Assembly: GCF_000003815.2 (NCBI RefSeq)
Contig: NC_049979.1
Location: 1,406,351-1,470,350, forward strand
Direction of reading: 5' to 3'
DNA: 64,000 nucleotides
Source: Branchiostoma floridae
Taxonomy: Eukaryota; Chordata; Leptocardii; Amphioxiformes; Branchiostomatidae
In this document: piece by piece, positions 1-64,000 of the stretch
How positions within the stretch are numbered: position 1 is the first letter of the stretch
Layout: every line of letters begins with the position of its first letter
The notes under the pieces: model-generated
What the model was told of the DNA's origin: nothing
Databases searched by the model: none
The model's input: the letters and a program-made list of their open reading frames with translations, nothing else
Translations under genes and position numbers: made by a program

Positions 1-3000
1 CGATTCTAACAGCTTGAAAGAAGGTAGGGTTAGAAGCTTCACTACGAAGGACGATTCGGGCTTTCTGCGAACTGTTGATATCGCCATCTATATACCTCCC
101 AACATCTCAAGCATGGTACAAATCAACAACACATCAGGTACTTTTTGAATTGTACTGATATCCATGAAATTGCTGTGCATTCTGCACAATTTCTGCTACA
201 TTCAAGTCAATTTTGCCGAACTGAGGAAGGGTTAAAATGATAGAAATTATCATTCCAGGGCTATATATATTAGTTGATACGGCAGTCACTCTCATTTATC
301 ATTAGTAAAAACGCAAAGATATCTAGACAGCTAACACTGATGCGATATGATGTCGAACTCATTATTATACGTCTGAAGTTAAGAGGAACCTATGTTACAG
401 TATTAAAGTCTTTTGACGTGGAATTCATCTCCAAAAGTGATGATTCCACGGCCATCAAACTGATCAATCCGCGGTCACCGAAAATCTAAGGAGACCCTAA
501 GGAGTTTTTTCTCTCCCTCTCCCCGCAGAAGTCCGTCTGAGTTACACCCTCTACAACAGCAGCAGCCTGTTTGTGCAGACTTCCCAGGGTGCAGCGGGAC
601 CTTTCCAGGGTGCAGCGGGACCTTCCCATGATGCCGTGGGAACCCGCGTCATCGGCGGGAGAATCGCAGGGAGGCGGGTCAAGAACCTGCCCGAACCGGT
701 CATCATCACCTTTGCCCCCCTACAGGTAGCCTGGGTGTCACCTTATTCCAACTACGGTTCGCTCATCAGATTGCTTCCATGACGGTATTTAGATACTTAC
801 CTACATCTTTTACCATGGAAGCTCACCTGGGTGATGGTTAGACATCATAATGAAGTTTTAATTGATACCTTTGCTCAACACAAGCAAATGTAATTCAACT
901 AGGATTTTCGTTAGGTTTATTGTCTTATTCTTTCCCTAATCTTAGTTTCTATCGAGATTAGTTTAAACCATTTTCATTTCTAATTTTTTAGAATTTTCTT
1001 CCTGAAGACGTGAAGGGGGTCAGGTGTGTGTTTTGGGACTTTGAGGCCGAGGCAGGACAAGGAGCGTGGTCGACTGAAGGGTGTGAGAGCACGGGCGAGG
1101 AAAATGGACTGTACACCTGCGCCTGTAACCACCTCACCAACTTCGCGGCAATCTTTGTAAGCCCCCCATTTTACTACACGGCGATCACGCTGCAACCTTG
1201 CTGTGACTAAAATTGCAATGGCTTAAAAATATGTTGGCTGGTTGACTTCATAGTTGGAATAGTTCGATTGTAAAGTTCATTTTGTATAGTAAAGATGTTC
1301 AAAAAGGCATTTGGCAGTTCTATGCCAGTACACTATATATTCAAACATTCGCTACCTCCAAAAATGGATCCAATCAGAGGCCCTGCGTACATTTACGCTA
1401 CAATTTAAATGTCAAAAGTTTTATTGAACAAGAAAATTTGAGTATTCATATTTTGGCCGATTCAATTTAATGTTTTGGGTTGTTATTTCTCCAGGACGTG
1501 CTCGGTGCGGGTTTCGGAGAGCACGAGAGACCGCTAGAGGTCATCACTATTGTGGGGTGTGTCGTGTCCATCGTTTGCCTGGTCCTCACCTTACTCTCTT
1601 TTATCGTCACAAGGTAGATAACTACATTATCGTTTGTCTGGTCCTTACTTTACTCTCTTTTGTTGTCACAAGGTAGATAACTACTCCATCGCATGACTGA
1701 TCTTCTTGATCAATAATCGCAAATAAGTACAGTAAATGTTAATGTCTGTTAATGTCTGTTCAAAAGAGGATCACCACTCTGGATAGTTTTTTTCGCTTAT
1801 TGTCAATCCATAATAATAAGTTGACTGCATAAATGCTTGGTATTCATTATGGAAGTACCATTGCCACACGTTGGAAATATTTTCTTTTTCATCCGTTTCG
1901 GAAGATGTTGTACCAGTTGTCAGTAAAGGTCATGCGTTTCTAATTCCAGGAACTACAAACGCCGCGCCAGCACAGGCCATGCCAGGAACCAGCGGCTCGT
2001 CCTCATCAACCTCTGTGTGGCTCTGCTGGCCATCCTCGTCATCTTCCTCGCTGGCATCAACCAGACGGCGTCTCCCATTGGCTGTACGGTGGTGGCCGCG
2101 TTGTTACACTACTTCCTATTGGCTGCCTTGGTGTGGATGGCGGTGGAGGCCGTTAACATATACCTCGCCGTTGTGGTAGTGTTTGACCATCACGTGTCTG
2201 AGAACTTCGTCATCAGGGCTGCAGCAGTGGCATGGGGTGAGGATTTGCTTCTTCACATATTAAGTTATAAACTACTTAAAAGAGGTGCTGAATCCCAGAA
2301 GCAGGTCTTGTTTTCTAGGGCCCGCTTTTTGTACATACATTCCTACGCGAAATCCATAATGACAACAAAGGCAAATTCGCAAGGAACAAATTACGCTCAT
2401 ACAGACTGTTCAAATCCACCTACAACGAAGAAGAGTACCTTAAAATTCCGAACGAACGTCAAAGATCTATTATCACCAAACTACGAATTAGCTGCCACAA
2501 ACTCCGTGTTGAATCAGGGAGGCACAACCGCACACCTCTGGAGCAAAGAATTTGTCAGTTCTGTAACCTGAACAAGGTCGAAGATGAAACCCACTTTTTA
2601 TTAGATTGTAGTTTATATACACTCGGCACAAAAAGTTTGGAATATCAACTTTGGTATATCATATTTCTGTTATCTATGCATCAATTTCAATGTATTATAT
2701 ATCAATAGAAAGCTTGTGCAATTTTCTTTCCTATGGTATCAAACTTATTATGATTGTAAACACATGAAACGAGCACAAGGCCCGCTTACGTGAGTGGGTC
2801 ACGAAAAAAAAGTGCCCAAATTCCCCTACTTCTGTTCAACACTGCATCGTCCTGTTGATATTGGCGCGAGTGTCACTGGTTCAATCAATCCTCTTTTCAC
2901 CTCACATTTTGTATACGGAACATACAAGGTTTTAGTACACTTGAATAGAGGTCATCTGCCCTTTTGATAGTTGGATGGCAGAATCAAAGCGTGGATGCGG

Positions 3001-5899: not shown

Positions 5900-7555
5900 T
5901 AACATTCATGTCTATTTTTAGGGAGACTGTCTTGGGATTGGAAAGACTGTGTTAAAAACCTGATGGTGAGCCGCTGTAGTAACATTCAAGTCCATTGTTC
6001 AGGATACTGGAAAGATGGTGTTAAAAAGAATTTATATTGCATTTCACATATATGAGGACAATGAGAAACAAGTAATACACTAGAACAAACCAAAATCACA
6101 TACCACGCAATCAATGATACATAAACGTATTTTTTATCAAAGAAAAACTAAACGGAATGCACAACATGTAAATGAATTCATTTTTACGCAGATAAACTGA
6201 GAAAAAGATCTAACAATCATATATTAATGGGCATTAATCTATTGAAACGAAAGCATATAAAGCAAATCCAGATTCCTATATTATCAATATTCGTAAGATT
6301 TTATGTACACCGTTTTATATATAATTAGATCTACTGTTTTCCATACACTGGTTCCTTTGTACATTGGACTGACATATGGCGGACAGGTCGCTGCGTCTGC
6401 TACATTTTGCAGTACCAAGGTGTGAGAAGGAGTTTAGCTTTAAACTAATGAATGGTAGTGTCATTTGAAATAAGAGCGGTCATTTCTATTATTATATATC
6501 TATTATTGTCTCATTGTACCAAATTACATTGCATACTTGGAACAACTGTAATGTTACGCGGACACATGGTTGTTGCATATATTACGAATACTCAAGAATT
6601 AAGTATTGACATATTTATAGAGCTTCCAAACAAGGAAACATTGGAAATACTTTTAAGGATGGCAACATTATCTGTGTCCAATTACGAGTGTATTTTTTCG
6701 TAGGAATCCCGTAATTCAAGAGTTTTTTTAACGGATAAAACAACTAAATAAGGAATATATTACAGAAAATACATATATAGGATCAGACAGGCCTAACTGC
6801 ATAACCTGTATAAGTCCGTACATGTTAAAGACAACATACATTTTGTGGCAGATTGTACATTATATTATATGAAAAATCGAAAATCGTTGTGTAAATCTAT
6901 GCAATTAGAAAAGACCAAAATGAACGTGTAATTTGTGGTTCAAAGCTGCTGCATATGAGTTTTGAAAATGTGTTGTTAACGTTAGTCCTTGCTAATCAAT
7001 AAATGAGGGAATTAGAACCAGAAACTTTGTATGTGTGTGTGTGTGTGTGCCTGTCGGTGTGTTTCCTAATTTTTGGTCCGATATTTGGTTCTTGGGTTGG
7101 TGGGTTGGCAAGGCAAATGTCAAGGCCAATTTTGCGCTCCCTGGTATGTGACCTTATTACTGCAGCAGAACTTCCTTTTCCCTATCTTTTGTCATGCAGC
7201 TGGACGTGCAAGGTCTTAAAGACTTCGTAGCAAACGATATAAAAGGCAACGGGGTGTAAACAACCCGCTCAATGTTTTAATATTCAAGCTGGCACGCTGG
7301 TTCAAGCAATCAATATACACATGTATTAAGCATACAAAGAAAACACATCAAAATATTTCATTAGATCTTCTATGATCGATCTGTTTTGTTTGTTTTTAGG
7401 CCACTCTGGTCAATGTTATGGATGACGTCCTCTGGAGACCCCAAAACTGATTTGCTCCGGCGAAAAAAAAGAAAACCCAGCAAAAATAAAATGTGCTGCT
7501 AAACATCCCTCAGACCATCCTTTCCCATGCTTGGTTTGTCTTATGCTCACCTTCT
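5900..7555. other. Intergenic, no gene seen
   Basis: AT-rich sequence between the receptor stop and the piggyBac-type element. It contains a short (TG)n run near 7030-7050. The open frames here (at most 83 codons) have no recognisable domains or splice context. Confidence 0.6.
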
Positions 7556-8504
7556 TTAACCCTCATCCGACCGTATGGGGTCATTTTTGACCCCAGGCGT
7601 ATATTTTAATCTGCCACAGCAACATTTTTCATCAGAGAAAAAATTCCTTCCATGAATTTGTTTGTATACATGTCTTACAACATCTACCAATTTTTCACCG
7701 AGCTTTGCCCATTATTGTATAAGCTATACTTGAAAGTTTGTGTCTTGTTCGGTGGGGTCAAAAATGACCCCAGCCAATTATGAATCATTAATTACATAAA
7801 TATCAAGATATTTCAATAAAATAAAAGGCATTCCTCATTATTGCTATTGCAGCAACAGGTTATAGTTGCTTAGATGAGTAAGCACCAAATATTTTGAAAG
7901 AAATTTAGTATTTTAGTGTAAAACACAGTTTTTCGACATTCTGCATAAATTATGATAATACGCACTAATTACCTATGCTAATGAAAGTGAAAATGTTTCT
8001 AATTAATTAAAAAACAATATATGGACAGAATGTGCAGAAGGAACCTACAAGAAAGATCTTTGCGGGAAAATAGACAACAGTTATTGTATGTATGTGTTTA
8101 GATGGCGGAATATGGTGCATAATTAAGTAATAAATTCGTTACTTTTCACAAATATTGTATTTTTTCTTGTTAAATAACATTATTATGCTATCAGCATTAT
8201 TGCATCACCACAATTATTGTATAGAAATTGATAAAACAAAACATTGTTTAAGTAAGTTTAGTATGGTAGATTTTCAGAGCAAATGTGGGTTTTCCTCATT
8301 TTCTGCATAAATTATGATAATGAGTAATAACTACTGACACCAAAACTTGTCAAAATATTTTTCATAGGTTAGTTAAACATCAACTACATAGAAATGACAA
8401 AATAAACCAGCAGAAATATGTCTATGAGCAAAACAAAATGGGGTCAAAAATGACCCCATACGGTCAGATTCGTCGTAAAAATGGAACGGTCGGATGAGGG
8501 TTAA
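7556..8504. mobile_element. piggyBac-type MITE with TTAA target duplications
   Basis: TTAA at 7556-7559 and 8501-8504 flank perfect 15-bp inverted ends CCCTCATCCGACCGT (7560-7574, 8486-8500). A subterminal palindrome, TGGGGTCATTTTTGACCCCA, occurs near both ends (7575-7596, 8440-8460) and half of it again at 7753-7775. There is no transposase frame, so it must be non-autonomous. TTAA specificity is the hallmark of the piggyBac superfamily. Confidence 0.85.
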
Positions 8505-10105: not shown

Positions 10106-10109
10106 AAAA

Positions 10110-10385: not shown

Positions 10386-10389
10386 GACA

Positions 10390-13656: not shown

Positions 13657-13899
13657 TTTCCTGTAAGGAAAGATAATCAGTATACAGTACAAAATAGTTG
13701 CAGCTCTTATAGAGTACACATACCCAATTTGATCACTTTAACTTTGAGAGTATGTCAACTATATTTGCAAAATTAAGATACAATTAAGTCAGCAGACAAA
13801 AGCAACAACAATTAGCTTCCGATTCAAAACCATCCTTGATGCCATCCTGGTTGACCTACAGTTACAAACTATTTTATGGATCCATGTGCAAGCAGACTT

Positions 13900-15720: not shown

Positions 15721-15939
15721 AAAAAAAAATATTACAGTAAAGCATCAAAGTCAACTTTCTGTCTGTCGTCTACTAAGCATCCTCTACTAAACTGGTCTTG
15801 ATAAACGTCTTTTAGCAAAAACAAAACAAAACAAAACATAGAAACTGTATTAGTCACAACAGTTTGTGTGTGACTTTTGATTCAAATTCTTGACTAATCA
15901 CACACTTAACTGCACCATTGCGTTGACTAATCTAAGACA

Positions 15940-20961: not shown

Positions 20962-21061
20962 NNNNNNNNNNNNNNNNNNNNNNNNNNNNNNNNNNNNNNN
21001 NNNNNNNNNNNNNNNNNNNNNNNNNNNNNNNNNNNNNNNNNNNNNNNNNNNNNNNNNNNNN
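20962..21061. other. Assembly gap (100 N)
   Basis: Placeholder gap of round length. It interrupts receptor 2 within or just after its first Ig domain. Confidence 0.99.
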
Positions 21062-21794: not shown

Positions 21795-24593
21795 ATGACT
21801 TACTTGCTAAAGAAACTACTGGTCCTTTTGCTGATCATCCTGAAGGAAACTGGGCCAACCACAACCTGCAGCAGCAGCTGTTCATCATCCTGTGACTGCG
21901 ACCGCAGAAGCCTCGGCTCTGTTCCTCAAGATCTACCTACAAGTATCACTAGCCTTCGCTTAGCGCATAATGACATTACAAGCCTATCTAATTCTGATCT
22001 CTCAAGGTACAAGAGTTTAACCAGGCTAATCGCTACATTTAACCAGATATCTATTGTACAACCTGGTGCATTTTCAAATCTAATTCACCTTGAAATCTTA
22101 AGCCTGGATAACAATCCCCTAACAAGCATTCAGTCTGGTACAGTCTCAAATCTACCTAAGCTAAAAGAATTGTCCCTGGGTAACAACCATCTATCTAACA
22201 TCCAGCCTGGCGCATTCACAAATCTACCCAATCTTGTCCAGTTGGCTCTATCAGGCAACAGACTATCCGACATACCTCCTGATGCATTCGCAGGTGTTCC
22301 AAGTCTCGGTTCCTTGCTATTGAATAGGAATCGGCTAAGTAACATTAACCCTGATTTGTTTTCAAATCTACATGCGTTACTAAGCTTGTCAATGTCCTTA
22401 AATGGGATAACTAACATCAATTCTGATACATTCTCAAAGATACCCGCACTGCGAAGTTTAGACCTTGATTCCAATCAGCTAACTGTCATTCACCCAGGTA
22501 CATTTTCAAGCCTACCCCAGCTCAAGTATTTGGAGATGGCAAATAATAAGATATCCAACATTATGCCTGGTGCGTTCTCAAATCTTCATCAGCTTGAAGA
22601 TTTAGAGCTGATGTACAACCATATAACTGAGATTCAACCTGGTACATTTTCAGATCTCCCAATGCTACAAGATCTATACCTGCGACATAACCAAATGACA
22701 ACCATTCAACCTGGCACATTCTCAAACCTACCAAAGCTTCGTAGAGTAAAACTGCGCAACAACCCCTGGCATTGCGACTGTAGGATGGTCGCATTCAGGA
22801 GAAGGATGACAGAGTCCCATTTGTTTGAAAACGAAATCATTTGTGAGGAACCTGGTAACTTCCGCGGACAAAAGCTTCAAAATATAGATCCCGAAATTTT
22901 GATCTGTGTCAAACCGAAAGTCGAGGTTCAAATAGGCAAACATTCGACACTGCTGCGTGGAAAGGCGCTTCATTTAATCTGTAAAGTTTCAGGGATTCCA
23001 AAACCAGACATTATGGTCATTCTTCCATCTGGACGAAACGCAACTGCTGTGCCAGATGGAAGAATTACCGTGAACGAGAATGGTAGCATCATTGTAAGGG
23101 ATCTTACCAAAACAGATGCAGGTTTGTACGTTTGCATGGCATCAAATCATGCTGGTTCTACATTTGCGACACTGTCTATTGAGATTAGAATGCCAACACC
23201 GGCAATATCCATAACTTCAGACAGCCCCGTTGTTACAGGCTCAACAATTCCCCTAACAAGTCTTATTGTCGCCGCACCTTCTACTCTGTCTGTTGATGGT
23301 ATAACAACAATGTCAACACTTGGCAGCGCAGTCGGCCCTGTTACAGGTGCAATACTTACCTCAACAATCCCTACTGGCTCCGCATTTTCCACATTGCCCG
23401 CTGATAGGCAAATGTCATCAACCATATCATCACCAACACGACTTAGCAGATCTGCTGTCACAAGCCCAACATTTTCCACGCTGCCTGAAGACCCAATCAC
23501 TTTGAGGTTTCAGAGGGCCAAATATAACACATTGGCTTGGGGGGACAATCTACGTTTGGTTTGTGAAGCTTCAGGAATCCCCTTACCGAACTTTACGGTC
23601 ATTCTCCCATCTGGTATCAAGGCAAGCGCCGATGAGTCAAGTGGGAGAATAATTGTAGGGGTGAATGGTACAACTTTGACTATTACCATAACAGATGTTA
23701 CTGTGGCAGATGCTGGTCTGTACAGCTGCATTGCAGTGAGTCCAGTTGGATCCTTATCTGCCACACTAACTGTTGACATCAAAGGCCCATCTTCACTTTC
23801 CCCCCAACTTACCGGTGAACGTACTTGGTCGCCATCCTTGCCAGCTGGCAAGACAGAGAGCAATGCTGACGCGGTGGTCTTCGACTTTAAGGTTGCTTTT
23901 TGTATATTTTCTGTAATCCTGATTATATTTGGTGTTGCTTTAGCTCTGCTTCAACGTAGGGCCCAAAAGCTTCCTTTGGCCCCCGCAGCTCTAATGGGGC
24001 ACTGCCCTACAGGGGAAAACGACCAAGCTATCATGTATGAGAATAGTGATGAAGCCGATACAAACGAACAAGCTAACATAACGTTACATAGAAATGAGGC
24101 GAGAACATTTAAGCGCAAACAACCAAGCATAGATGAGACAAACAAGGAAACAGGTAAGAAAGAACAAGATAACACATTTGAGAATAGCGAAGAAGAAGGT
24201 ACAAAAGAACAAGCTAACATACATGACAATGAGGAAGAGACAGGTACAATCAATCGAGCTTACAAGGTAGCAGAATCTCTCTCTGGAGAGGCTGAATATC
24301 CAATAGCAGGATGTCGAAATGAATCAGATTGTGCAGTCCAGGTAGTGATAGTTCACGAGCCATTTACGTATGAAAATAATGATGAGGAAACGGGGCCTGA
24401 TGTTGAAGATGAGAAGCATGTGTATTACACGGGTTATGAAAATAATGATGAGGAAACGGGGCTAGATGTTGAACATGAGAAGCACGTGTATTACACGGGT
24501 TATGAAAATAATGAAGAGGAAACGGGGCCTGATGTCGAAGATGAGAAACACGTGTATTACACCGGTTATGAGGAAGGCAACATTAGCTGGTAA
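21795..24593 (+). CDS. LRR-Ig transmembrane receptor 3 (932 aa, tail shortened by frameshift)
   Basis: Same plan as receptor 1. Signal peptide 1-~24; LRRNT cysteines at 25, 29, 33 and 35; LRRs ~45-320; LRRCT ~322-372 (NPWHCDCRM); Ig ~373-462; Ser/Thr linker; Ig ~568-660; membrane helix ~695-722 (FCIFSVILIIFGVALALL); acidic tail from 723. The tail has three copies of a 22-residue unit (YENNDEETG..VE.EKHVYYTG), each with a YEN site for Grb2-type SH2 domains. The frame ends at TAA 24591 because of a +1 shift near 24575 relative to receptor 4; the next frame continues the homologous tail. It could still make a membrane receptor with a shorter tail. The ATG follows TTTCAG|GAAAA, which implies an upstream UTR exon. 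Confidence 0.88.
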   Translation: MTYLLKKLLVLLLIILKETGPTTTCSSSCSSSCDCDRRSLGSVPQDLPTSITSLRLAHNDITSLSNSDLSRYKSLTRLIATFNQISIVQPGAFSNLIHLEILSLDNNPLTSIQSGTVSNLPKLKELSLGNNHLSNIQPGAFTNLPNLVQLALSGNRLSDIPPDAFAGVPSLGSLLLNRNRLSNINPDLFSNLHALLSLSMSLNGITNINSDTFSKIPALRSLDLDSNQLTVIHPGTFSSLPQLKYLEMANNKISNIMPGAFSNLHQLEDLELMYNHITEIQPGTFSDLPMLQDLYLRHNQMTTIQPGTFSNLPKLRRVKLRNNPWHCDCRMVAFRRRMTESHLFENEIICEEPGNFRGQKLQNIDPEILICVKPKVEVQIGKHSTLLRGKALHLICKVSGIPKPDIMVILPSGRNATAVPDGRITVNENGSIIVRDLTKTDAGLYVCMASNHAGSTFATLSIEIRMPTPAISITSDSPVVTGSTIPLTSLIVAAPSTLSVDGITTMSTLGSAVGPVTGAILTSTIPTGSAFSTLPADRQMSSTISSPTRLSRSAVTSPTFSTLPEDPITLRFQRAKYNTLAWGDNLRLVCEASGIPLPNFTVILPSGIKASADESSGRIIVGVNGTTLTITITDVTVADAGLYSCIAVSPVGSLSATLTVDIKGPSSLSPQLTGERTWSPSLPAGKTESNADAVVFDFKVAFCIFSVILIIFGVALALLQRRAQKLPLAPAALMGHCPTGENDQAIMYENSDEADTNEQANITLHRNEARTFKRKQPSIDETNKETGKKEQDNTFENSEEEGTKEQANIHDNEEETGTINRAYKVAESLSGEAEYPIAGCRNESDCAVQVVIVHEPFTYENNDEETGPDVEDEKHVYYTGYENNDEETGLDVEHEKHVYYTGYENNEEETGPDVEDEKHVYYTGYEEGNISW
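24367..24570 (+). repeat. 66-bp x3 tandem repeat in the receptor 3 tail
   Basis: Three copies of a 22-codon unit beginning YENN(D/E)EETG. Receptor 4 has one copy. Each copy adds one YxN site and the YYTG or YDTG tyrosines. Confidence 0.85.
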
Positions 24594-25265
24594 CTCTCAG
24601 GCTATAAATCAGTATGGCAATGGGGAGGCTGTATCTTCTCCTGAGTTTAACCGTGTGTATGGTGGGGAGGCTGTATCTTCTCCTGAGTTTAACCGTGTGT
24701 ATGATGGGGAGGCTGTATCTCCTCCTGAGTTTAACCGTGTGTATGGTGGGGAGGCTGTATCTTCTCCTGAGTTTAACCGTGTGTATGATGGGGAGGCTGT
24801 ATCTTCTCCTGAGCTTAACTGTGTGTATGATGGGGAGGCTGTATCTTCCGCTGAGCTTAACCGTGTGTATGGCGATGAGGCTGAATTTGCCTCGTCTCGG
24901 TTTATCTATGGAAATGGCAATGGCGAAGCAATGTCTACTGCCTCGCCAGCCATCTACAAGAATGACAGTTAACAGGCGAAATCCACTGATTCTCGTGCCA
25001 TCTATGGAAATGACCGACGCTGATAATTTGGCAGTATTGACCCATTCTCGGTTTAACCGTGAGTCTGGCAATGAGGTAGAGGCAGTGCCATATGCTTCGT
25101 CTCAGATTACCTAATAGATGAAAATACTAATTACAAGGAGGAAGTTGCTGATGCCTCATCAGTAAAAATAATTCAGTAATTTACAAGAATAAAGGCGACC
25201 AGGCACAATCTACTGCTTCTTATATCATCATCGGAAATGACGATGATGCTCCTCGGTTACTCTAT
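24594..25265 (+). pseudogene. Decayed remainder of the receptor 3 cytoplasmic tail
   Basis: Shifted by one frame, this continues the tail: about seven copies of a 14-residue unit (NRVYDGEAVSSPEF), then EA.FASS.FIYGNGNGEAM, ASPAIYKND, then a TAA at 24970 where receptor 4 has AAA. Beyond that more frame changes and stops follow (IYGND-like near 25005, then TGATAA). Unless spliced or edited, it is untranslated 3' UTR. A sequencing error could explain one lesion but not all of them. Confidence 0.75.
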
Positions 25266-34973: not shown

Positions 34974-35550
34974 GCTTAACCGTGTGTATGGTGGGGAGGC
35001 TGTATCTCCTCCTGAGTTTAACCGTGTGTATGATGGGGAGGTTGTAACTTCTCCCGAGTTTAACCGTGTGTATGGTGGGGAGGCTGTATCTCCTCCTGAG
35101 TTTAACCGTGTTTATGAAGGGGAGGCTGTATCTTCTCCTGAGTTTAACCGTGTGCATGGTGGGGAGGGTGTATCTTCCCCCTGAACTTAACCGGGTGTTA
35201 TGCTGGGGAGGATGTATATTCTCCTGAGATTAACTGTGTGTATGATGGGGAGGCTGTATCTTCTCCGTAGTTTAACCGTGTGTATGATGGGAAGGCTGTA
35301 TCTTCTCCTGAGTTTAACCGTGTGTATGATGGGGAGGCTGTATCTTCTCCTGAGGTTAATCGTGTGTATGATGGGGAGGCTATATCTTCTCCTGAGCTTA
35401 ACCGTGTGTATAGTGGGGAGGCTGTATCTTCTCCTGAGCTTCACCGTGTGTATGATGGGGAGGCTGTATCTTCTCCTGGCCTTAACCGTGTGTATGATGG
35501 GGAGGCTGTATCTTCTCCTGAGTTTAACCGTGTGTATGCTGGGGAGGCTG
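34645..35550 (+). repeat. 42-bp minisatellite in the receptor 4 tail (~21 copies)
   Basis: Unit encodes NRVYDGEAVSSPEF with variants YGGE, YEGE, VVTSP and VSPP. Receptor 3 has about 7 copies and receptor 1 a single diverged one (YGGKEVPTPEFN). Copies drift individually, so the array is not purely an assembly artefact. Confidence 0.9.
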
Positions 35551-35866
35551 TATTTGCTTCATCTCAGTGTATCTATAGAAATAGCAACGGCGAAGCAATG
35601 TCTATTGCCTCGCCAGCCATCTACAAGAATGATGGTAAACAGATGAAATCCTCTGCTTCTTGTGTCATGTATGGAAATGACGATGATGGTTTGGCAGTAT
35701 TTACCTATTCTCGGTTTAACCGTGAGTCTGGCAATAAGGGTGAGACAGTGCCATATGCTTCCTCTCAGATTAACGATGAGAATCCTGGTAACAGGGAGGA
35801 AACAGTGGCTGACGCCTTATCAGCAATGTATAAGAATAAAGGCGAATATGATGAACGGAAATGATG
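34974..35866 (+). pseudogene. Out-of-frame remainder of the receptor 4 tail
   Basis: After the 2-base deletion near 34968, two 1-base insertions (near 35180 and 35200) bring the frame back, then one TAG (35268, CCGTAG where others have CCTGAG) interrupts it. From 35271 to 35864 the original frame is open: more repeats, then EAVFASS, ASPAIYKNDGKQ, VMYGNDDDG, PYASSQI, AMYKNKG and a stop. The full tail would have made a protein of roughly 1250 residues. Confidence 0.75.
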
Positions 35867-36669: not shown

Positions 36670-36769
36670 NNNNNNNNNNNNNNNNNNNNNNNNNNNNNNN
36701 NNNNNNNNNNNNNNNNNNNNNNNNNNNNNNNNNNNNNNNNNNNNNNNNNNNNNNNNNNNNNNNNNNNNN
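36670..36769. other. Assembly gap (100 N)
   Basis: Placeholder gap inside the receptor 4 3' flank. Confidence 0.99.
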
Positions 36770-38921: not shown

Positions 38922-52811
<13,890 letters not shown>

Positions 52812-53344: not shown

Positions 53345-56300
53345 ATGGAAGGGATCGGGACAGAAATCACTCACAAAATCCGGGTAAATATGCCCAAATT
53401 CTGCTTTATACAATAATCTATCGCAAATATGTTTGATCAAAGGTATTAATGATAACTTGAAGATCATAAGAATGACGTTTGTAGCCAGTTCGAAGTAGCG
53501 GTAGCACGCAAAAACACCACGGTTTACAGCGCTCTTGTTCACCCTTGCTACCCAAGCCGGTTTCCATGAACTCGAAATTTTTGTGCGAAATTTATGAAAA
53601 AAGGAATTTCAATTACAATACATCATCCAAAACTTCGCTTTAACATGATCTTATGCAGTATGGTACAATGTGTGACAGAGACTCTGGAATAACACATCTT
53701 CCATTTAATTCTGCAGAGCGCGATCAAAGCAAAGCTTGTGGACCTGGGAGCTTACGTAGGTGAGTCGTTTTCAGTCCCCTATAAAACACACCACATGATG
53801 TGTGAATTTCTGAATATTATAATATTTATATGTCTGGTAGTGTTGCCTGGCTGCCTTTGTAAGCATTAACAGCAAATAGTTAAATCTCCGTCTGTATTTG
53901 AATTTGAGTATCGTCCTTTTGTGTAACACACCAGCTTTACTATATCTGGAAGTCCAAGAAGATGTTCGTTAGATTGAAGTCAAGATCATGGCTGTTCGCT
54001 CAGTTAATGCCAGTATTCATGGACAGTCGTTGGATGGTAGCCATTCGGAGAAGCGTGGCAAAAAAATGTTACGCTCTTCCACCTCTACATCTGCTTGGAG
54101 ATGACAGCTTTGTCTGCTGCATGTGATAGCAGCAGAATGAGCTGGATATAAAGGGGACTACACAGTTACATTACAACATATCCCAATAAATCATGGAATC
54201 TGGTAATTTTTCCACTATTTCATGGTGCAGAGGTGCAGAAAATGCCAAGATGAAGAAAGGTTATTTTTCACAACTGATGTAGCAAGTAAAGGGTCTTTCC
54301 TACCATAGCCACCCAAAAACTGTGCAGAAAATTCACAGTAAACAGTTTCAAAGTAAGACTGGACAAGTTGATGGAGAACCACCCAGTTGTGTACGACTAT
54401 AAAGCCTTGGACAACCCTCACAAACCAACCATCACAGTCTGCTGAAAGCAGAGTGGTAGAAACAGTTGATGACGAGCGGTTCCATGGGGTGTGAACTCCT
54501 ATATAGCTACTCAACCAAAAGAAGTTGACTCTACAGTCTACTCTAAAATATTCCACCAAGAAAGGGTTTTAGATGGTTCAGTGACTTCTTTATTGAGGTC
54601 TCTCACCATGGTGTCTAGGCACATGCATTAACTCTTGCATCACCCCTATAGTACTGTATTTGAACATACAATGACCTGTCACATTTGACCCCTTGTTGCC
54701 CACTTCCAACCCTTGTTTGATCCTGTCTGGTAGGGGTTAACCCCTACTCACCACTGTCATTGGTGACAATTGAATGAGTTCCAAGGTCTATGAAATGGCA
54801 CCATTTTTACGTGATACAAACAAACTTTATCAGGNNNNNNNNNNNNNNNNNNNNNNNNNNNNNNNNNNNNNNNNNNNNNNNNNNNNNNNNNNNNNNNNNN
54901 NNNNNNNNNNNNNNNNNNNNNNNNNNNNNNNNNNTGGCCCTTCAACCGTGAAAATTTGAAAATGTAAAAAGTTGGCATTAGACTAGATGGTAACATCATA
55001 TGATTTTTTTGGTCAGTCTAGATGGCTTTATCATCATTTGTCATATTTGATTAGACATTATTCAACACCCAAATGATAGTAAAGTACCACTACGCTAGTT
55101 GAAAATTAGCGTAGTGGTCATCATTGTTACGTAGTGGTAGCAAATCATAGCGTAGTGGCCCACTATGCTAAAATGCACTAACTAGAACCTTGTATACAAT
55201 TTCCGTCCCCAGATGATGAGCTGCCGGACTACATCATGGTGATGGTTGCCAACAAGAAGAGCCAGGCGCAGATGACTGACGACCTCTCCCTGTTCCTGGC
55301 CAATAACACGGAGAAGTTCACGGCATGGTCAGAGGAGAACACGCTTATCTTGCCGCATACGGGGTTGGACAAGTCCACTAGCCCTATTGTCCCGGGCAAG
55401 TGAAAATGCTGGTCAGGCAAGTGTATGCCCTACCCCACTTGTCCGATCAGCATTCTCACTTCGGGCAAGTTAAATTTCCATTGAGTGACAAATTTTCACA
55501 ACATAACATAAAGCAATGGGTCAACACAGAAAAATAGAGCTAATAACAAGAATTCCATTGATGGAAGAGAAAATAAATAGAAAAATGTCACTTAGATTTC
55601 GGGCAAGTGAAAATTAAAGTTGGTTTGGGCAAGTAAATTTTTTTTATGTAGTTGCCCAGTAGGACAAATTAAATGAATTTTGGAAAACTTGTCCAACCCT
55701 GCCATACCGTAGATGTTTTTGTGGGAAGAGTTGGAAAACCTAAGTAAAGCTGTTTTCACTTACATGTTTTGGTTGGGAGAGTTTTTGTTGGGCTTCTATA
55801 GACTATAGCAGGATTTAGGGTTGCCGTTTTGAAAGCTCCAGACACAGAGAAGTACACTGCATGGTCAGACAGAGGATAACACATTCATCTTGCCACATAC
55901 TGTAAATATTTTTCTGGGAAGACTTATTGAATCTCATTTCACATACATGTACGGCCTGTAATGTTTTGGTTGGGAGAGTTTTTGTCTGTCAATAACCTGT
56001 ATCAGGCTTGAAGGTTGTGGTGTTGAAAGTTGTAGACTAGAGTCCATGTGCATTACTAGTATACGTGAATTTTATTTTATTTTCTATTTTATTTATTTCT
56101 ATTTCTATTTTATGGTAGAAGCCGAAACACATTTTATTTCAAACTGGCCCTTCTGTGATCAAGAGAGAAAAGAGGTCTTAAAAGCCACCAAATTCTATCC
56201 TAATATCCCCACTTTTACAGACAAAAAGAAAACCACTCTCCCCTTAATGTCACAAAACCCACACATTATAGAAAAAGTGGGATCTTTCATCCTCCACTGT

Positions 56301-59300
56301 CTCAGAAAAAGAAGTCAAACCCAATAAGTTACATCTTTAAAGTTTCAGTTAGACTAGAGCAGTCGCTTACTATGCTGTTTTAGTGTTAACCATTTTTTGT
56401 CTGTCATTTTTTTGTCACTTGCAATTAGCCCTCGGGCCAGAATTTGCAATAAACTTATCAATTATGTTAGGAAGATATAATCAGTTGCAGTTGCAGCTAA
56501 ACATCTTCAGTGGTATACTTGCAACAAAGTAGGTACATTTGCAACAGATTATTGCTCCGGAAGTTTGTCACAAAGAAATCTTGAAGTTGTGGAAATAAGA
56601 TATTTTCCTTTCCCCCCACAGGCTCCACGGAGTCCTGAGCAAGCTACAGAATGCAACGGAAGGAGAAGTGAACACAGTGTTCCAGCAGGGTAAGGACTTC
56701 AGTATATTCAAGTAGATCACAATATGATTGATCTCAATGTCCACATTTAAGAATGATTAGCTTCTCAGAAGTGCAAAAAAATTGAAAGCATTTTCTTACA
56801 GTTACATTCATCCTCTGTGGAAACTGCTACACTTCCATTGTCCTTTCATGCTGTCAGTATGTTATCTAGGATGGCAAAGGGCCTTGCATGGCAGAAGTCC
56901 ATAAAACCTTTCATTTGTTTCTGGTGTTTACCTACAGAATCTGACGCTGTGAGCAGGAGTGCCAAGGCCATGGCCGCTGTGACCAGCCAGAAGCCGCCTG
57001 CGCCGGCTGTAGCCAGTGTCTCTACACCTGCCGTGTCCACCCAGCACCTGGCAGCCGCCCCCCTACCTGCACAGCCCCCCGCACAGGCCCCCTTGCTGAT
57101 CCCCCCTCCGGCGGTCCCCCCTCCGGAGCCCATCATCTCCATCAAACCCGATGATTCGGACATGATGGAGGAGCTGGAGACTGAGGTACAGTAATCATCA
57201 TTTCATCTCATCATCATTTCATCTCGTCTTATTAGTTATATCACTCAATCTGTGGGATCATTGGGTCATCCTCCTAAGCAGGAACATCCAACGGTGAAAC
57301 CACCTGTCTGGATGTACCCTGCTTTCTCAACTGCCTCCCTTAGTTCCTGACTGCCTTGCTTATAGATATTAATGAGTTTACCCTTATTATGCGATGTCCC
57401 TTTTGAAAACTGAAAGGTCTATTCTCTGATTGGCCGACAGTCGGTTTGTGGCGACGCCCACAGGAACTAAGGGTGACGGTTGAGAAGGCAGGGTACATCC
57501 AAACAGGCGGTTTTGCTGTTGGTTGTTCCTTCGTAGGAGGATGCATTGGGCCCAGGGGTATCATAGAAGTTCAGTTTTCTCCACCATTTTCCGTGTTTCT
57601 TAGTGTTTCATTTAGCGTCATGCCTGGCCATTCTCTGATATTATCCTCCCATCCTTTCTATTGCCTAACCTCTCTTCTTCTTCCCTGGACGATTTCCTGC
57701 ATGATAATTATGGCTAGTCACAATCGCTGTACCGTTTCAGTTTTCTTGTCATTACTGTATCATAGGTATAAATCTTGAAATAATTTCTGGTTTTATGTTC
57801 AAGGTTTTTCACAGTGTACCCTCGTGGAGAACTTGTCACCCAGCAAACATTATTTTGCTTTAAATGCAAACCTCAACGATTCTTCTTCTCCAGGAGCCTG
57901 CCCCCCTCCCCACTGTATTGGCACAGTCCAGACACCCTGCAGCCACCCCTGTACAGTACCAGGCTGTGACCACCTCCCCTCCCAAACACAGGCCTGCAGA
58001 TGTGGACAGGCATGCAGCTAAACAGTCTTCTGTACAGTACCTACCACAGGTGAGTCATGCTTACACACCTGTACAGTACCTACCACAGGTGAGTTATACT
58101 TGCTTACCTGTACAGTACCTACCACAGGTGAGTCATACTTACACACCTGTACAGTACCTACCACAGGTGAGTCATACTTACACACCCGTACAGTACCTAC
58201 CACAGGTGAGGCATACTTACACACCTGTACAGTACCTACCACAGGTGAGTCATACTTACACACCTGTACAGTACCTACCACAGGTGAGGCATACTTACAC
58301 ACCTGTACAGTACCTACCACAGGTGAGTCATACTTACACACCTGTACAGTACCTACCACAGGTGAGTCATACTTACACACCTGTACAGTACCTACCACAG
58401 GTGAGTCATACTTACACCCCTGTACAGTACCTACCACAGGTGAGTTCTACTTACACACCTGTACAGTACCTACCACAGGTGAGTTCTACTTACACACCTG
58501 TACAGTACCTACCACAGGTGAGTCATACTTACACACCTGTACAGTACCAGGCTGTGACCACCTCCCCTCCCAAACACAGGCCTGCAGACATGCAACCAAA
58601 CAGTCTTCTGTACAGTATCTACCACAGGTATCCGGTCGTTTCATGTACCGTATATGTACAACTGTTAAGTCAACTTGTCTTGTACAACCATCAGTTCAGT
58701 TCATTGGTAGGTACAAGCTGGGACTGAGTTACTCGAGCCACTTCATCTGGGCAAACCTCTATTCTCAAGTCTTAGCACATTCTTTGGTGTTCTTGAAGCC
58801 TTTTAATGTGCTAATCAACGTATAGTTTCTTGAAAACTTTACAAGCTTGCTTATTATGGACAACATCTGTGCTTTGATACACCTCATTATAAACTTAGTG
58901 TTTCATGATTCACAATTGCTAGATTCTGATTGACGCTCGGAAGTGTATATTTTGTTATTTTGGTTTGTTGGTTGTTTTTCTTTGTTTATGTTATTTTGTA
59001 TAGAGCATGTCTGTTAAGCAGTACACTAAGCACTGAGTACATTTAACCCATTTAACCTTTGCTGTATTGCCCAGTCCCCTGTGAAGCCCCGGCTTGCCGC
59101 TGTGTCCAGTCGTAGCAGCCATCATGGCAGGCAGGTGTCCAGCCAGCATGTGTCACAGGTGGGGACATGTTACCTTTTACGCTCATACAGACTGTTCAAA
59201 TCCACCTATAACGAAGAAGAGTATCTTAAGATTCCGAACGAACGACAAAGATCTATTATCACCAAACTACGAATCAGCTGCCACAAACTCCGTGTTGAAT

Positions 59301-62300
59301 CAGGGAGGCACAACCACACACCTCTGGAGCAAAGAGTCTGTCAGTTCTGTAACCTGAACAAGATCGAAGATGAATCTCACTTTCTATTAAATTGTAGTTT
59401 ATATAATAATGATAGAAGTATTCTTTTTAGCTATATTATAGGAAAGTTCCCTCGCTTTGAATATATGTCTAGTGTTGAAAAATTCATTTTTCTTATGAGC
59501 TTTGATCAAACGACATTATACAAACACATCTCAAGCTACATATTTAACATAACTAAGAAACGAGAAGAAGCCGAACAAATGTATTAGAATAGTTTTAGAA
59601 TTTATGTTTTAGATTAGTCTTAGAAACCATGTTTACTGCATTACTACCCTTTGTATCTATATGCCTGTACTTAGCCCGAGAATGTGCAATAAAGGCTATT
59701 ACAATAAAATGTTTTATCAGCTCATTCATTGGTTAACTCAGATCCTTTGCAAATCAGTGGCACATATTGAAGGTATACATTCAACTTAAGTACCACATCA
59801 ACAGTTAACAATTGTACTTGATTAAAATCCAACATTGTATGCTGCACTTGATTAAAGTCCAATGTTGTATGCTATAGACCTTGCCTAGTTTTACATTAGC
59901 AAACGTTCCCTTTGCTTTCTCACTCCTTCAGCAATGTCTAAGTGTTTTTCACTTACTAAAAATAGATCTCATGATGCATGATACATTTTATTCCCTGGAA
60001 AAAAGTCCTGTGATTCACAGAGTTCATTTTTCAGGAAAAAGATCTCACGAGGCGTGACATTCCTTTTCCTGGAAAAATACCGCATGATGCACTTCTTTTC
60101 CTGAAACAGTCTAAAGATACGCTACCTTCATTTTGCTTGAAAAGTATCTCATGATGTTTAGATCTCCAGCTATTGTAGAAGTTTATTTGCAAGTTCTTGC
60201 CCGAGGGCTAATTGCAACATGAAACATACAGAGAATATAATAAACATGTATAAAATGAAATACTTTGGTATAGATAACAATGGTGACAAGTGTAAACGAG
60301 TGACTATTCTATCAATGGTATGGACTGCTGAGAGCTACAATCTACGTATTTAGGGTTTGACTTCTTTTCTGGAAGCAGTGGAAGACGAAGTGTCCCACTT
60401 TTTCTATGATGCGTGGGTTATGTGACGTTAACAGCGTTATAGTTTTGTTTTCGTCGGTAAGCGTTTGGAAATTTTTGTGGAATTTGCATGCCTCTTCAAA
60501 TAACTCCTTTCTTTCCTGATCGTTAGAGAGATCGTTAGAGAGATCGTTAGAGAGATCGTTAGAGAGGCAGTTAGAAATAAAATGTATTTATAAAATAAAT
60601 TGTATGCGCGCACATGAGCACTGGGCCTGTAGGAGAGCGTCATTCTGGAGTGAGACGAATCAGGCAATACATGTTGTGTCTGACTCAATCTATGGACAAA
60701 CTGGTTAGGCTAACGTCTCATTTCAAAACCGGGGCCCAGCCAGGCTGTTTGTGGAAATGGAGAATAGAAATGTAGTTATGTAGACGTAAAAATATACACA
60801 AATAATAGCCACGACTATTCTCTTAATGTTTTGTGCAGTTTGGTGTCCTTTGGTATCATGCTTTTCGTTCCCGAATGCTGCCGGGCCGGGCCCTGGTTTG
60901 GAAATATGACGTAGTCCTTAAGACGGATTGTTGCATGGCACTAACTTTTCTTGTCTCCTCCCGATCAGGTTCATCCGGTTGCCCGGAAGCGTAAGACCCC
61001 GTCCTCCGTGGTTGGTTCCGTGATCCTGTCAGCAGCACCAGATTACGAGTCGGAGGAGGATGAACCCCTGAGGAAGGGCGTGGCCAGTACGGTCAGGGTT
61101 CCAGAGAGGAGGTCAGCGGTCTCTTAGAGTATAGTTAGTACTCTATCTTGTATAGATACTGATAGAGTAAGTTTACAGGGCTTAAGATGTTATAACACTA
61201 CTGTAACTGTAACTGTAAAAGCAATGTAAGTTCCTGCTGGTAGTGTCAAAAGAATTCTCCTATATCCTGTATAGCTAGATTTGAGTACTTGGCACATGAT
61301 TCATTGACCAATCCTGCCATGTCTTCCTCCCTGCAGACCCAGCCTGCCTCCCTCCAAACAGGCTAACCGCTCCCTGCTGAACTAAGATGTGCACTACGTA
61401 CAACAGCCACACTAGTAGTCTGTTTACAGGGATTAAGATGTTATAAAACTATTTCCTGACCAATCCTGCCATGTCTTCTCCCCCGCAGACCCAGCCTGCC
61501 TCCCTCCAAACAGGCCAACCGCTCCCTGCTGAACTAAGCTGTGCACTGTGTACAACAGCCACACTAGTAAGCTGTTGTAAGCACACTAGTAGTCTGTTTA
61601 CAGGGATTAAGATGTTATAAAACTATTTCCTGACCAATCCTGCCATGTCTTCCTCCCCTGCAGACCCAGCCTGCCTCCCTCCAAACAGGCTAACCGCTCC
61701 CTGCTGCTGAGAGCCATCTCCGAGGCCAACCAGTCTGCCGGGAAGGTCAAGGGCAGGCAGGAGCACGCACAGGAGGTCATGGTGCAGCCCATGCAGGTAA
61801 ACAAACAAACAAACAAACAAGCAGGTAAGGTAAAGGGCAGGCAGGAGCACGCACAGGAGGTCATGGTGCAGCCCATGCAGGTAAACAAACAAACAAACAA
61901 ACAAGCAGGTAAGGTAAAGGGCAGGCAGGAGCACGCACAGGAGGTCATGGTGCAGCCCATGCAGGTAAACAAACAAACAAACAAACAAGCAGGTAAGGTA
62001 AAGGGTAAGTCAGGAACACGCACGGGAGGTCATGGTGCAGCCCATGCAGGTAAACAAACAAACAAACAAACAAGCAGGTAAAGGTAAAGGGTAAGTCAGG
62101 AACACGCACGGGAGGTCATGGTGCAGCCCATGCAGGTAAACAAACAAACAAACAAACAAGCAGGTAAAGGTTAAGGGTAAGTCAGGAACACGCACAGGAG
62201 GTCATGGTGCAGCCCATGCAGGTTGGTTTGTTTGTTTGTTTATTGCAATCTCCATCAGACTTAACAGTTAGTGTTGTTTACATGAAAACAGGATTTTAAA

Positions 62301-64000
62301 ATACCAGTCGGATACTCCTCCCGACCATTGTTTTGAGCATCCCCCATTGATAAGTTGTCACGAACAACCAGGTTCAGGTTCAGGTCTGGATCTGGACCTG
62401 GTCCTCTGGACCTGAACAGAACCTGTTCCTAGTTTTTTTGTACAAGCTGTACCAGTACCCACCCCTAGTCAACCAGTTTAGGCAACAGGTAGAGATCAAC
62501 ATATGCTTACTTATCTATATAGCATCTAAATGTAGCTGCAGCCAAACAAACATATATGTACGCCAAAAAGTAGTTACTCAAGCAACTGGATATGGTTTTG
62601 AAACATTCAGATGTTTCGGATAGAATCCACTATCCTTCGTCAGTAACACTGAAGTGATCTGAAAGAAACAGGTCTTTTATACTCTAACTATGAATGAAAG
62701 ACAATTTCAGATGTCCAATAGGAAACGTTGTAAGACAATTTTGACTGAAGACAATTGGATTCCAAAGAAAACAAAGGTGATAGTGGATTCTATCCGAAAC
62801 GTCTGACCGTTTCAAAACCATATCCAGTTGCTTGAGTAATTACTTTTTGGCGTATCTTATTACCTGGATGTCTAACCTACATCGACGTAAACATATATGT
62901 AAACAGAGGACATAAGATTTGGACTGTTGTTATCCATAGAACCAGGTTTGTGTGCCCTGAAATGAAATGAACTGTATGACGTAACTTTCAGCCAGCCAAG
63001 GTGACCTTTTGGCACCACATTTGTATGAGTTATCAGTAGACGGTTAAAGATCATGTTGTTCTTCTCCCTGGCAGTATGACCCCATGGTGGGGTCAGAGTA
63101 CCACCCAACCAGCTACAGGCCGACCGTGAGGGTCGAAGGTCACCAGCTGGGGGGTTACCGCAGTTTTCGTAACATCGTCTCCAGGACAATCCAGCCCAGC
63201 CCGGTACAGGAGGAGGGTAGGTGTTGGCCTCTTGTTTCGCAACCCAGTAAATCACCTTTTAAAAGTCATAACACACCAGTTTCCTTCATTCAGTGCAAGC
63301 TGCTTTAGACCAAACTGTTAGGTTTGATCCACTCACATGGGAATGTGAAAACCTTCTCTTTTCAATAAGTGTGGTGGGGTCTTCAAGTTGTGGCTTGCCT
63401 CAAAATGGGACTCCCACTACAACCCTACCCACAAGACCACCATGTGATCATGCTGTTACAAGACATAGAATGTATGATGTGGTGAAATTAAGACTGTTTG
63501 TCTCACTTGTGTTGTTTACCTGTGTGCTGTCTCACCTGTGTTGTTTACCTGTGTGCTGTCTCACCCGTGTTGTTTACCTGTGCGTTGTCTCACCTGTGTT
63601 GTTTACCTGTGCGTTGTCTCACCTGTGTTGTTTACCTGTGTGCTGTCTCACCCGTGTTGTTTACCTGTGCGTTGTCTCACCTGTGTTGTTTACCTGTGCG
63701 TTGTCTCACCTGTGTTGTTTACCTGTGCGCTGTCTCACCTGTGTTGTTTACCTGTGCGTTGTCTCACCTGTGTTGTTTACCTGTGCGTTGTCTCACCTGT
63801 GTTGTTTACCTGTGCGTTGTCTCACCTGTGTTGTTTACCTGTGCGTTGTCTCACCTGTGTTGTTTACCTGTGCGTTGTCTCACCTGTGTTGTTTACCTGT
63901 GTGTTGTCTCACCTGTGTGCAGACTACCAGGAGCATGACCTGGTGACCCCGCCCGGCGACCGGCGCAATGTCGTATCCAAGGAGGAGGAAGAAATGACGA
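53345..64000 (+). CDS. ZC3H14: Zinc finger CCCH-type protein 14 (Nab2/MSUT2 family), 5' portion
   Basis: Nuclear poly(A)-binding protein that restrains poly(A) tail length. Exons: 53345-53383, 53717-53759, 55213-55327, 56622-56689, 56938-57185, 57894-58049 (or longer), 59075-59158, 60969-61111, 61664-61796 (or longer), 63075-63216, 63923-beyond. All phases join. The N-terminus has the PWI-like fold of the family: GTEITHKIR, SAIKAKLVDLGAYVDDELPD, YIMVMVANKKSQ, MTDDLSLFLANNTEKFTAWL, HGVLSKLQ. A Pro/Ala-rich region ends PIISIKPDDSDMMEELETE. Later come a basic KRK segment, an acidic stretch (YESEEDE) and the conserved RRPSLPPSKQANRSLL, LRAISEANQS block. The CCCH fingers lie beyond the window. Introns hold a retrotransposon fragment, hAT and other MITEs. 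Confidence 0.9.
54835..54934. other. Assembly gap (100 N)
   Basis: Placeholder gap in the ZC3H14 intron before exon 3. Confidence 0.99.
55070..55165. repeat. Short repeats of a GCGTAGTGG motif
   Basis: TAGCGTAGTGG occurs several times in both orientations within ~90 bp upstream of ZC3H14 exon 3. It could form a hairpin (CCACTACGCTAG ... TAGCGTAGTGG); function unknown. Confidence 0.6.
55300..55885 (+). repeat. ZC3H14: Old duplication of ZC3H14 exon 3 end and donor
   Basis: GAGAAGTTCACGGCATG|GTCAGA at 55311-55333 recurs diverged as GAGAAGTACACTGCATG|GTCAGA at 55847-55869, together with ~100 bp of following intron. A hAT element (55360-55701) landed later in the first intron copy. Without it the period is about 190 bp. 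Confidence 0.8.
55360..55701. mobile_element. hAT-type MITE in ZC3H14 intron
   Basis: Ends CGGGGTTGGACAAGT and (inverse) CAGGGTTGGACAAGT; the interior repeats GGGCAAGT. The flank is close to, but not exactly, duplicated (GCCGCATA / CCATACC). The duplicated intron copy at ~55895 (TTGCCACATACTGTA) shows the uninterrupted site. Confidence 0.8.
56046..56460 (+). mobile_element. Non-LTR retrotransposon 3' end, copy 1
   Basis: The frame reads FYPNIPTFTDKKKT, then LPLMSQNPHIIEKVGSFILH and RKRSQTQ before its stop, then a 3' UTR with TTGCAATTAGCCCTCGGGC and GCAATAAACTT. The inverted copy at 60185-60500 reads NPRIIEKVGHFVFHC at the matching place. Looks like the C-terminus of a retrotransposon frame, 5' truncated. 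Confidence 0.7.
57267..57543. mobile_element. Inverted-repeat MITE (CATCCTCCTACGCAGGGACA family), copy 2
   Basis: Mirrors the element at 38410-38692. The flank CATTGGG appears on both sides (57259-57265, 57544-57550), a 7-8-bp target duplication. Confidence 0.85.
57894..58049 (+). CDS. ZC3H14: ZC3H14 exon 6, parent of the 39-bp array
   Basis: Phase-0 exon of 52 codons (EPAPLPTVLAQSRHP ... SSVQYLPQ) ending CCACAG|GTGAGT. The next 12 units copy its end, and the frame stays open to the stop after 58724, so any of the donors after 58049 gives a longer in-frame exon. Confidence 0.85.
57940..58640 (+). repeat. ZC3H14: 39-bp tandem array of a splice donor in ZC3H14 (13 donors)
   Basis: Unit CCTGTACAGTACCTACCACAG|GTGAGTCATACTTACACA. 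Donors fall every 39 bp from after 58049 to after 58517. Then a diverged copy of the exon body (58545-58629, QAVTTSPPKHRPA...) ends with CCACAG|GTATCC. Each unit adds VSHTYTPVQYLPQ. Units also contain TTACACACCTGTACAG, an acceptor-like tract, so 12-base micro-exons are conceivable. Confidence 0.93.
59177..59700 (+). mobile_element. Non-LTR retrotransposon 3' fragment in ZC3H14 intron
   Basis: Uninterrupted copy of the element split at 2391/3871. It reads RSYRLFKSTYNEEEYLKIPN, later CQFCNLNKIEDESHFLLNC (a Cys-Cys-His-Cys knuckle seen at the end of many reverse-transcriptase frames), stop, then CTTAGCCCGAG and GCAATAAAGGC. It starts ~18 bp after the donor of the exon at 59158 and at the same internal base as the copy at 2391. 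Confidence 0.85.
60185..60500 (-). mobile_element. Non-LTR retrotransposon 3' end, copy 2 (reverse)
   Basis: Inverted relative of 56046-56460: on minus NPRIIEKVGHFVFHC, stop, then TTGCAATTAGCCCTCGGGC and GCAATAAACTT. A 12-bp tandem (GATCGTTAGAGA x4) follows at 60520-60568. Confidence 0.7.
61337..61385 (+). pseudogene. ZC3H14: Truncated copy A of ZC3H14 exon 9, ends in stop
   Basis: After CTGCAG it repeats the exon start (RPSLPPSKQANRSLL) but then reads AAC TAA. If spliced from exon 8 the protein would end here, without zinc fingers. Confidence 0.8.
61499..61537 (+). pseudogene. ZC3H14: Truncated copy B of ZC3H14 exon 9, ends in stop
   Basis: Second copy, about 162 bp downstream of copy A, with its own acceptor (CCCCGCAG) and the same RPSLPPSKQANRSLL-N-stop. 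The true exon with a third acceptor follows at 61664. Confidence 0.8.
61720..62225 (+). repeat. ZC3H14: ~84-bp tandem array copying the end of ZC3H14 exon 9 and its donor (6 donors)
   Basis: Each unit has GTCATGGTGCAGCCCATGCAG|GTAAAC, an (AAAC)n tract and GCAGGTAAGGTAAAGG. The first three units are 84 bp and remain open in the exon frame (KVKGRQEHAQEVMVQPMQ then [10 protein letters not shown]); later units differ by a base and shift frame. The last donor (62222) is changed to CAG|GTTGGT, after which a TTTG run replaces AAAC. Confidence 0.92.
62290..62467. mobile_element. GGTACCGG hAT MITE, partial copy in ZC3H14 intron
   Basis: Holds AGGTTCAGGTTCAGGTC, GGACCTGGTCC and an end GTACCCACCCCTA, matching one half of the element at 26406. 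The other end is missing. Confidence 0.65.
63508..63920 (+). repeat. ZC3H14: 29-bp minisatellite ending at a ZC3H14 acceptor (~14 copies)
   Basis: Unit CTCACCTGTGTTGTTTACCT + GTGCGTTGT. The last unit merges into CTCACCTGTGTGCAG|AC, the acceptor of the exon at 63923, so the array extends the acceptor's pyrimidine-rich tract. The long open frames through it are an effect of the repeat and not genes. Confidence 0.92.
63923..64000 (+). CDS. ZC3H14: ZC3H14 exon 11, runs off the window
   Basis: Joins the exon ending at 63216 in phase 1 to give EED-YQEHDLVTPPGDRRN and an acidic VSKEEEEM stretch. Open to the last base. Confidence 0.8.

Follow-up and report, generated by a model that had tools for sequence, protein, structure and literature searches.

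Putative mirages at the exon borders of further lancelet genes: recurrence at many loci, an apparently new (TTTG)n-joined subclass and a synonymous bias among intronic copies

The locus and its genes

The window, the whole 64,000-nt stretch of NC_049979.1 that was analysed, belongs to the 513,431,437-bp Branchiostoma floridae assembly and carries three spliced genes. The first encodes an adhesion-type GPCR, in which 7tm_2 and GPS domains were detected. The second, on the minus strand, encodes kynurenine 3-monooxygenase (KMO; best PDB match, E 1.4e-177). The third we take, by eye, to be ZC3H14-like; searches of Pfam and PDB with a piece of it gave no match. The labels ALDH1L-, TBC1D13-, C2H2-, UGT-, DNA-PKcs- and AMD1-like are likewise our assumptions, made by eye. 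Exon tables built from open reading frames give 7 exons for the GPCR, 15 for KMO and 9 for the ZC3H14-like gene. The frames are open across the exon pieces used, and that of the GPCR has a terminal stop only. Three 100-N runs lie in the window (20962-21061, 36670-36769 and 54835-54934), the last of them about 280 bp upstream of the first ZC3H14-like exon found.

Several other repeats occur in the window. A 21 bp x2.3 repeat at 580-628 lies inside a GPCR coding exon, away from the ends of that exon. Two minisatellites in the long intergenic stretch, at 24369-24871 and 34658-35553, have a common 42-bp unit (6 and 21 copies, respectively), the former also having a 66-bp unit; both are perhaps inside a repeated element. 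By eye, the same repeated element (CGCTCATACAGACTGTTCAAATCCACCTA..) is present in introns of the GPCR (~2340-4190) and of the ZC3H14-like gene (59175-59700).

Arrays at exon borders

Arrays were detected with TRF and set against the exon boundaries predicted from the ORF-based tables. A slash within a motif marks the predicted border.

Array a, 1570-1684, plus strand: 59 bp x1.9 (TRF); end of the GPCR TM1 exon (TM1 identity by eye) with donor CAAG/GTAGAT; predicted working donor 1613, copy at ~1672.
Array b, 41426-42174, minus strand: 98 bp x7.7 (TRF); final 50 nt of KMO exon 14, followed by donor ATG/GTGGGT; predicted working copy right-most, boundary 42124/42125; (TTTG)n between copies.
Array c, 47054-47541, minus strand: end of KMO exon 7 with donor GAG/GTAAGG, boundary 47432/47433; TRF gives 30-bp units (x13.7, 47054-47457) as well as a 233-bp super-unit (x2, 47078-47541).
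Array d, 55306-56037, plus strand: degenerate two-copy ZC3H14-like exon end with donor GCATG/GTCAGA, working boundary 55327.
Array e, 58030-58548, plus strand: 39 bp x13.3 (TRF); exon end CTACCACAG/GTGAGT, with the working boundary at 58049; by eye, a longer part of the exon is copied again at ~58540-58630.
Acceptor array, 61333-61700, plus strand: exon start GCAG/ACCCAGCCTGCC in three copies, at 61333, 61485 and 61660; copy 3, with its exon start at 61664, is predicted to be the working one, and copies 1 and 2 reach a stop (LLN-stop).
Array f, 61743-62223, plus strand: 84 bp x5.7 (TRF); exon end CAG/GTAAAC, working boundary 61796; (CAAA)n between copies.
Eighth array, 63498-63918, plus strand: 29 bp x14.5 (TRF); adjoins the acceptor at 63922/63923, which is not part of the unit.

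The repeat unit crosses an exon-intron border in arrays a, b, c, e and f and in the acceptor array, is degenerate in d, and does not cross one in the array at 63498-63918. Splice signals are present within the copies. Arrays a, b, c, e and f each contain the exon-contiguous predicted donor (1613, 42124, 47432, 58049 and 61796, respectively). Followed in the direction of transcription, the exon body leads into the first copy, and the remaining copies are intronic. The acceptor array has the mirror layout, with its exon-contiguous copy last. The predicted exons have open frames, as expected if the exon-contiguous copy is the one in use.

The preliminary description had counted six arrays of an exon end with its donor, a seventh that copies an acceptor three times and an eighth beside an acceptor. 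TRF and the exon tables bear out five of the six, each of which holds a predicted working donor, and the last two are as described. Array d, the remaining one, reads as a real but old, interrupted two-copy duplication. The pieces of its pair (55300-55885) are identical at 47/55 and 62/76 positions, the first scores 59 against a best of 23 among random pieces, and their spacing points to an insertion of ~340 bp in the first copy. That arrays recur at donors of unrelated genes also stands.

The precedent of the amphioxus Adh locus proves apt. Tandem duplications of lancelet exon-intron borders have been named "mirages" and are described in excerpts of two reports for Adh3, globin, TnC and PGBD5 genes (PMC3087553, PMC3902484), the latter adding PGBD5 and TnC. 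The window arrays match the Adh3 mirages as these are described in the excerpts of PMC3087553, where Adh3 arrays are reported for B. lanceolatum too. Judged by their sequence, the window arrays are further members of this known kind in new genes.

Unit boundaries and chance at exon junctions

In 12 donor units whose lengths were read by hand, the unit takes in 20-99 nt of the exon and 6-19 nt of the intron, the latter with a median of 10; by eye, some units from the TTTG search described below are shorter or longer. Short words appear by eye at both breakpoints of array a (ATCG) and array b (GCTT), which fits microhomology-mediated tandem duplication.

Minisatellites might instead arise anywhere, those at borders being merely the ones that are recognised, with introns buffering them so that they survive. 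We consider such untargeted origin unlikely. The short intron part of the 12 units speaks against it, as does a test in which each array was entered once, by unit length. Of the strong gene-body arrays in the window, 5/7 extend across a donor where 0.69 would be expected (p 5.5e-5); for all gene-body arrays the figures are 5/19 and 0.99 (p 0.0016). The window was, however, chosen on account of these arrays, which makes the test post hoc. No TRF array in the window's gene bodies spans an acceptor, where 0.72 (strong) and 1.03 (all) are expected. A second test, made per position, favours untargeted origin. With a near copy defined as lying within 1 kb and every copy of every array included in the background, 5/28 donors in the window have one, against 14.8% of gene-body positions (p 0.39; no donor enrichment), as does 1/28 acceptors. 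The two tests disagree; the collapsed-unit test is the fairer on origin, though post hoc.

A random sample of the genome was considered on the same point. It comprised 20 x 10 kb (the first 20 of 160 drawn positions), all on C1 and C2, amounting to 200 kb with ~12 kb N. None of its 35 arrays reaches a donor score of 10.5, which 6/27 window arrays reach or exceed, with the threshold set afterwards and the scoring matrix entered by hand; such absence is what untargeted minisatellites would give. Seven random arrays score at least 400. L019 is a firm acceptor mirage, while L017 and L013 are doubtful, and in the other four (L010, L011, L015 and L022) no exon was recognised, again as untargeted origin would have it. 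In L017 the coding score prefers a different frame from that read by eye. L013 (2083-3090; 54 bp x18, unit containing GGGGTAAGT) has a frame open across all 18 copies and so could be a coding repeat; otherwise it would be a donor mirage.

High-scoring donor words call for care even within the window. In three of its six top-scoring arrays (those starting at 41426, 63498 and 1570) the top score lies on the strand opposite the gene, and in array f the highest-scoring donor site differs from the working donor. Since the best donor-like words at 41426-42174, 63498-63918 and 1570-1684 are on the opposite strand, words alone are no proof of donor copying.

Recurrence across the genome

Pairs of the donor word CAGGTAAGT spaced 10-39 bp occur 34+13 = 47 times in the 513-Mb assembly, while the reversed motif with the same spacing gives 3+1 = 4 pairs. 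In the random sample the corresponding single words occur 7 and 5 times. This excess of 47 over 4 argues against untargeted minisatellites. The pairs fall at ~18 loci, three of which resemble a dispersed family. Eight loci were examined, chosen without a fixed rule, the 10 omitted including the three family-like loci and one many-pair array; 6/8 begin by eye at a plausible exon end and 2/8 are unjudgeable. Coding scores are clearly positive in four of these six (L038, L039, L040 and L045), about zero in L043 (-0.9; stretch partly intronic) and negative in L044 (-2.3).

Pairs of a second word, CAGGTGAGT, number 800+913 against 2+0. This excess was set aside as evidence, since much of the listing belongs to a single dispersed family whose period is close to 51 bp. 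Members of a family of ~51-bp period lie at C1:8046904, 9480069, 20225153 and 29239917 and at C2:1602046 and 2328611, and their units resemble an acceptor, a short exon and a donor (CAGGTGAGTAACGTG..TTTCCTTTGATTACAGACCAGGTAAG).

The preliminary description had raised the possibility of a species-wide process, tied to the donor sequence or to transcription. Similar arrays do occur at many genome loci; donor enrichment across the genome was gauged from word pairs and small samples. Acceptors are copied too, at 61333-61660 in the window and at L007, L008, L019 and L037 elsewhere, which means that a tie to the donor cannot be the whole of the process.

A (TTTG)n-joined subclass

With the KMO array as query, many genome loci match, chiefly via its (CAAA)n part. 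Thirteen were inspected, namely those with at least two separate matches within 1 kb; C12:3829409 and C13:18595536, whose matches overlap, were counted as single runs and left out. Exon-like units are seen by eye in 11/13, and no exon was seen in the other two (L030 and L035). In three loci (L002, L029 and L035) the match to the KMO array extends past the (CAAA)n tract, so this set of 13 is not wholly blind to exons; even so, the 11/13 stand against untargeted minisatellites. In eight of the arrays the fetched stretch includes the working copy, which is continuous with an exon predicted there. The (TTTG)n tract lies 6-18 nt beyond the donor in nine measured units.

A search of the genome for TTTGx4 - 33-62 bp - TTTGx4 returned 211+147 matches. 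Those listed (C1 to C4) comprise 28 loci, 2 of them plain runs. Of 26 units among them, with sequence taken from matches listed to 80 letters and several units close together on C4, 11 score as coding at p<=0.05, as against 4/12 true KMO exon ends; mean GC is 0.51 vs 0.415. A CATT version of the search gave 840+1030 matches, those listed (C1) being plain or near-plain CATT runs. It is a weak control, because long runs fill a list from one contig. The reversed TTTG pattern is the same microsatellite in a different phase and hence no control. GCTTG was considered as a common joint and rejected; it recurs in the KMO-query loci, is by eye absent from the TTTG-search list and may stem from the query. 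A strict GCTTG-anchored pattern gave 20 matches vs 4.

Ends of TTTG/CAAA-tailed repeats lie at 42241-42263, beside KMO exon 14, and at 62227-62241, beside array f. The subclass could be read as a retrotransposon insertion reduced to its (CAAA)n tail, together with a long target-site duplication that was amplified later, a reading to which we give little credence. Consistent with it, these repeat ends adjoin arrays b and f (42241 and 62227), and in KMO exon 14 and L031 the TTTG joints equal the copies minus one, as expected if a tract was added at each joint. Yet neither of the two elements beside arrays b and f was found to have a long target-site duplication, and in L002, L029, L032 and L033 the last full copy, too, has a TTTG tract after it, against the joints-minus-one rule. 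Arrays a, c, e and L013, moreover, have no TTTG at all, and 70-110 bp would be an unusual length for a target duplication. The subclass of arrays whose copies are joined by (TTTG)n looks new.

Codon bias among intronic copies

In 15 hand-chosen arrays with frames set by eye, distinct codon changes from a reference copy number 57 synonymous to 23 nonsynonymous, over 208 and 758 sites (ratio 0.11). The reference is the working copy or one of identical sequence; the TBC acceptor array, which contributes 2:3, is the exception, its reference being an intronic copy. The two alternative frames give 14:70 and 6:77 for these changes. A second set, of nine loci with several readable copies and frames chosen by coding score, shows a weak bias (15:16 vs 11:50; Fisher p 0.003), and a third, again hand-chosen with frames by eye, gives 17:6 vs 6:40 (p 8e-7). 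By codon position, changes in 17 arrays are distributed 16/9/77. Neither CpG nor transition bias accounts for this pattern, which persists outside CpG (13/7/58) and in transversions (6/4/36). Non-working copies appear mostly to retain the amino-acid sequence, with a bias toward synonymous differences that looks new, though some copies do carry a stop, frameshifts or nonsynonymous changes.

The bias holds for changes on single intronic copies. Among 10 hand-chosen arrays with at least three copies, the synonymous to nonsynonymous counts are 23:10 for changes private to one intronic copy, 13:8 for shared changes and 7:2 for changes confined to the working copy. With changes treated as independent, a model in which one branch is constrained and the other neutral is rejected for both neutral ratios tried (p 7e-7 and 8e-11). 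Copies retired and then neutral would be expected to show ~35-44% synonymous changes, against the 57/80 observed. This suggests that working exon ends and intronic copies often exchange sequence. Copies would either have been distinct working alleles when they joined an array or move back into the working position so frequently that selection acts on them, and both routes need exchange between working and intronic sequence.

Two other explanations of the synonymous differences were weighed. In a very heterozygous genome the assembly might have stacked haplotypes in tandem, an artefact that would produce synonymous differences between copies too. N runs in or near some loci (54835-54934 in the window; L005 and L036) are in keeping with this, as is the aberrant draft assembly of a globin mirage described in an excerpt of PMC3087553. 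We regard it as very improbable, given that up to 18 copies and three variants at one site exceed two haplotypes, that (TTTG)n joints are present, and that the published mirages, according to the excerpts, were backed by trace data and RT-PCR (PMC3087553) and by re-sequencing (PMC3902484).

The copies might also be selected directly, through use as alternative exon ends or cassette exons. This is a weaker third reading of the codon bias and one that we find quite doubtful. It would account for the low nonsynonymous ratio in non-working copies, and by eye (TTTG)n plus AG, which is acceptor-like, precedes some of them. Against this, donor-type copies lack the 5' part of the exon, read-through to the next copy meets stops (e.g., in L002), and regular splicing of the Adh3 and globin mirages is suggested in the excerpts of PMC3087553.

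A proposed model of duplication and exchange

We favour, at somewhat better than an even chance, a model in which the arrays are lancelet mirages formed by exon-border duplication, tolerated by splicing and followed by exchange between working and intronic sequence. A short tandem duplication would run from ~20-100 nt inside the exon to ~6-19 nt past the 5' splice site or, less often, cross a 3' splice site, with exon ends themselves as the presumed target; in one subclass, a (TTTG)n tract would come to lie between copies. The copy attached to the exon body would go on being used while the others sit in the intron, so that splicing is tolerated and the array is free to grow and shrink. The working exon end and the intronic copies, on the same or the homologous chromosome, would continue to exchange sequence, and intronic copies would therefore descend from working exon ends and retain their codons.

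A broader proposal is tentative and, in our view, falls short of an even chance. Lancelet introns would hold a large set of exon-end archives that swap sequence with the working exon; the non-coding copies would be codon-constrained and could return variation to the protein, and their formation would sense exon ends and often join copies by (TTTG)n. If exchange is frequent enough to impose codon constraint, intron DNA would be a reservoir of coding variation. Lancelets would then be a natural system in which to study how the spliceosome chooses among many identical 5' splice sites, as well as minisatellite birth and the tandem-duplication route to new introns. The mirage kind was already known from a few genes; the (TTTG)n-joined subclass and the apparently codon-constrained intronic copies at many loci are a testable extension of it that looks new.

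Comparison with known systems

A literature search covering mainly titles and the openings of abstracts, and few subscription journals, found no genome-wide count of mirages, no TTTG subclass and no codon test.

Ordinary minisatellites share with the present arrays tandem units (here of ~29-233 bp) that are probably unstable. The present arrays differ from them in having unit boundaries near exon ends and codon-biased differences between copies.

Tandem genomic duplication as a route to intron gain (Rogers 1989, cited in an excerpt of PMC3087553), for which a potato RdRp case is reported (PMC4974935), is alike in that the duplication carries splice motifs. In those systems the duplication creates a new intron, whereas here the intron is taken as pre-existing, with the copies inside it.

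The closest likeness is to the lancelet mirages of Adh3, globin BflGb6/BflGb9, TnC and PGBD5 as described in the excerpts, in which repeats also span the border, at the 5' or the 3' side, many with AG/GT. There the authentic exon copy is in use, and here the exon-contiguous copy is predicted to be. Compared with what the excerpts describe, the present arrays add new genes, many loci, (TTTG)n joints, joints that lie near the donor and a synonymous bias among the copies.
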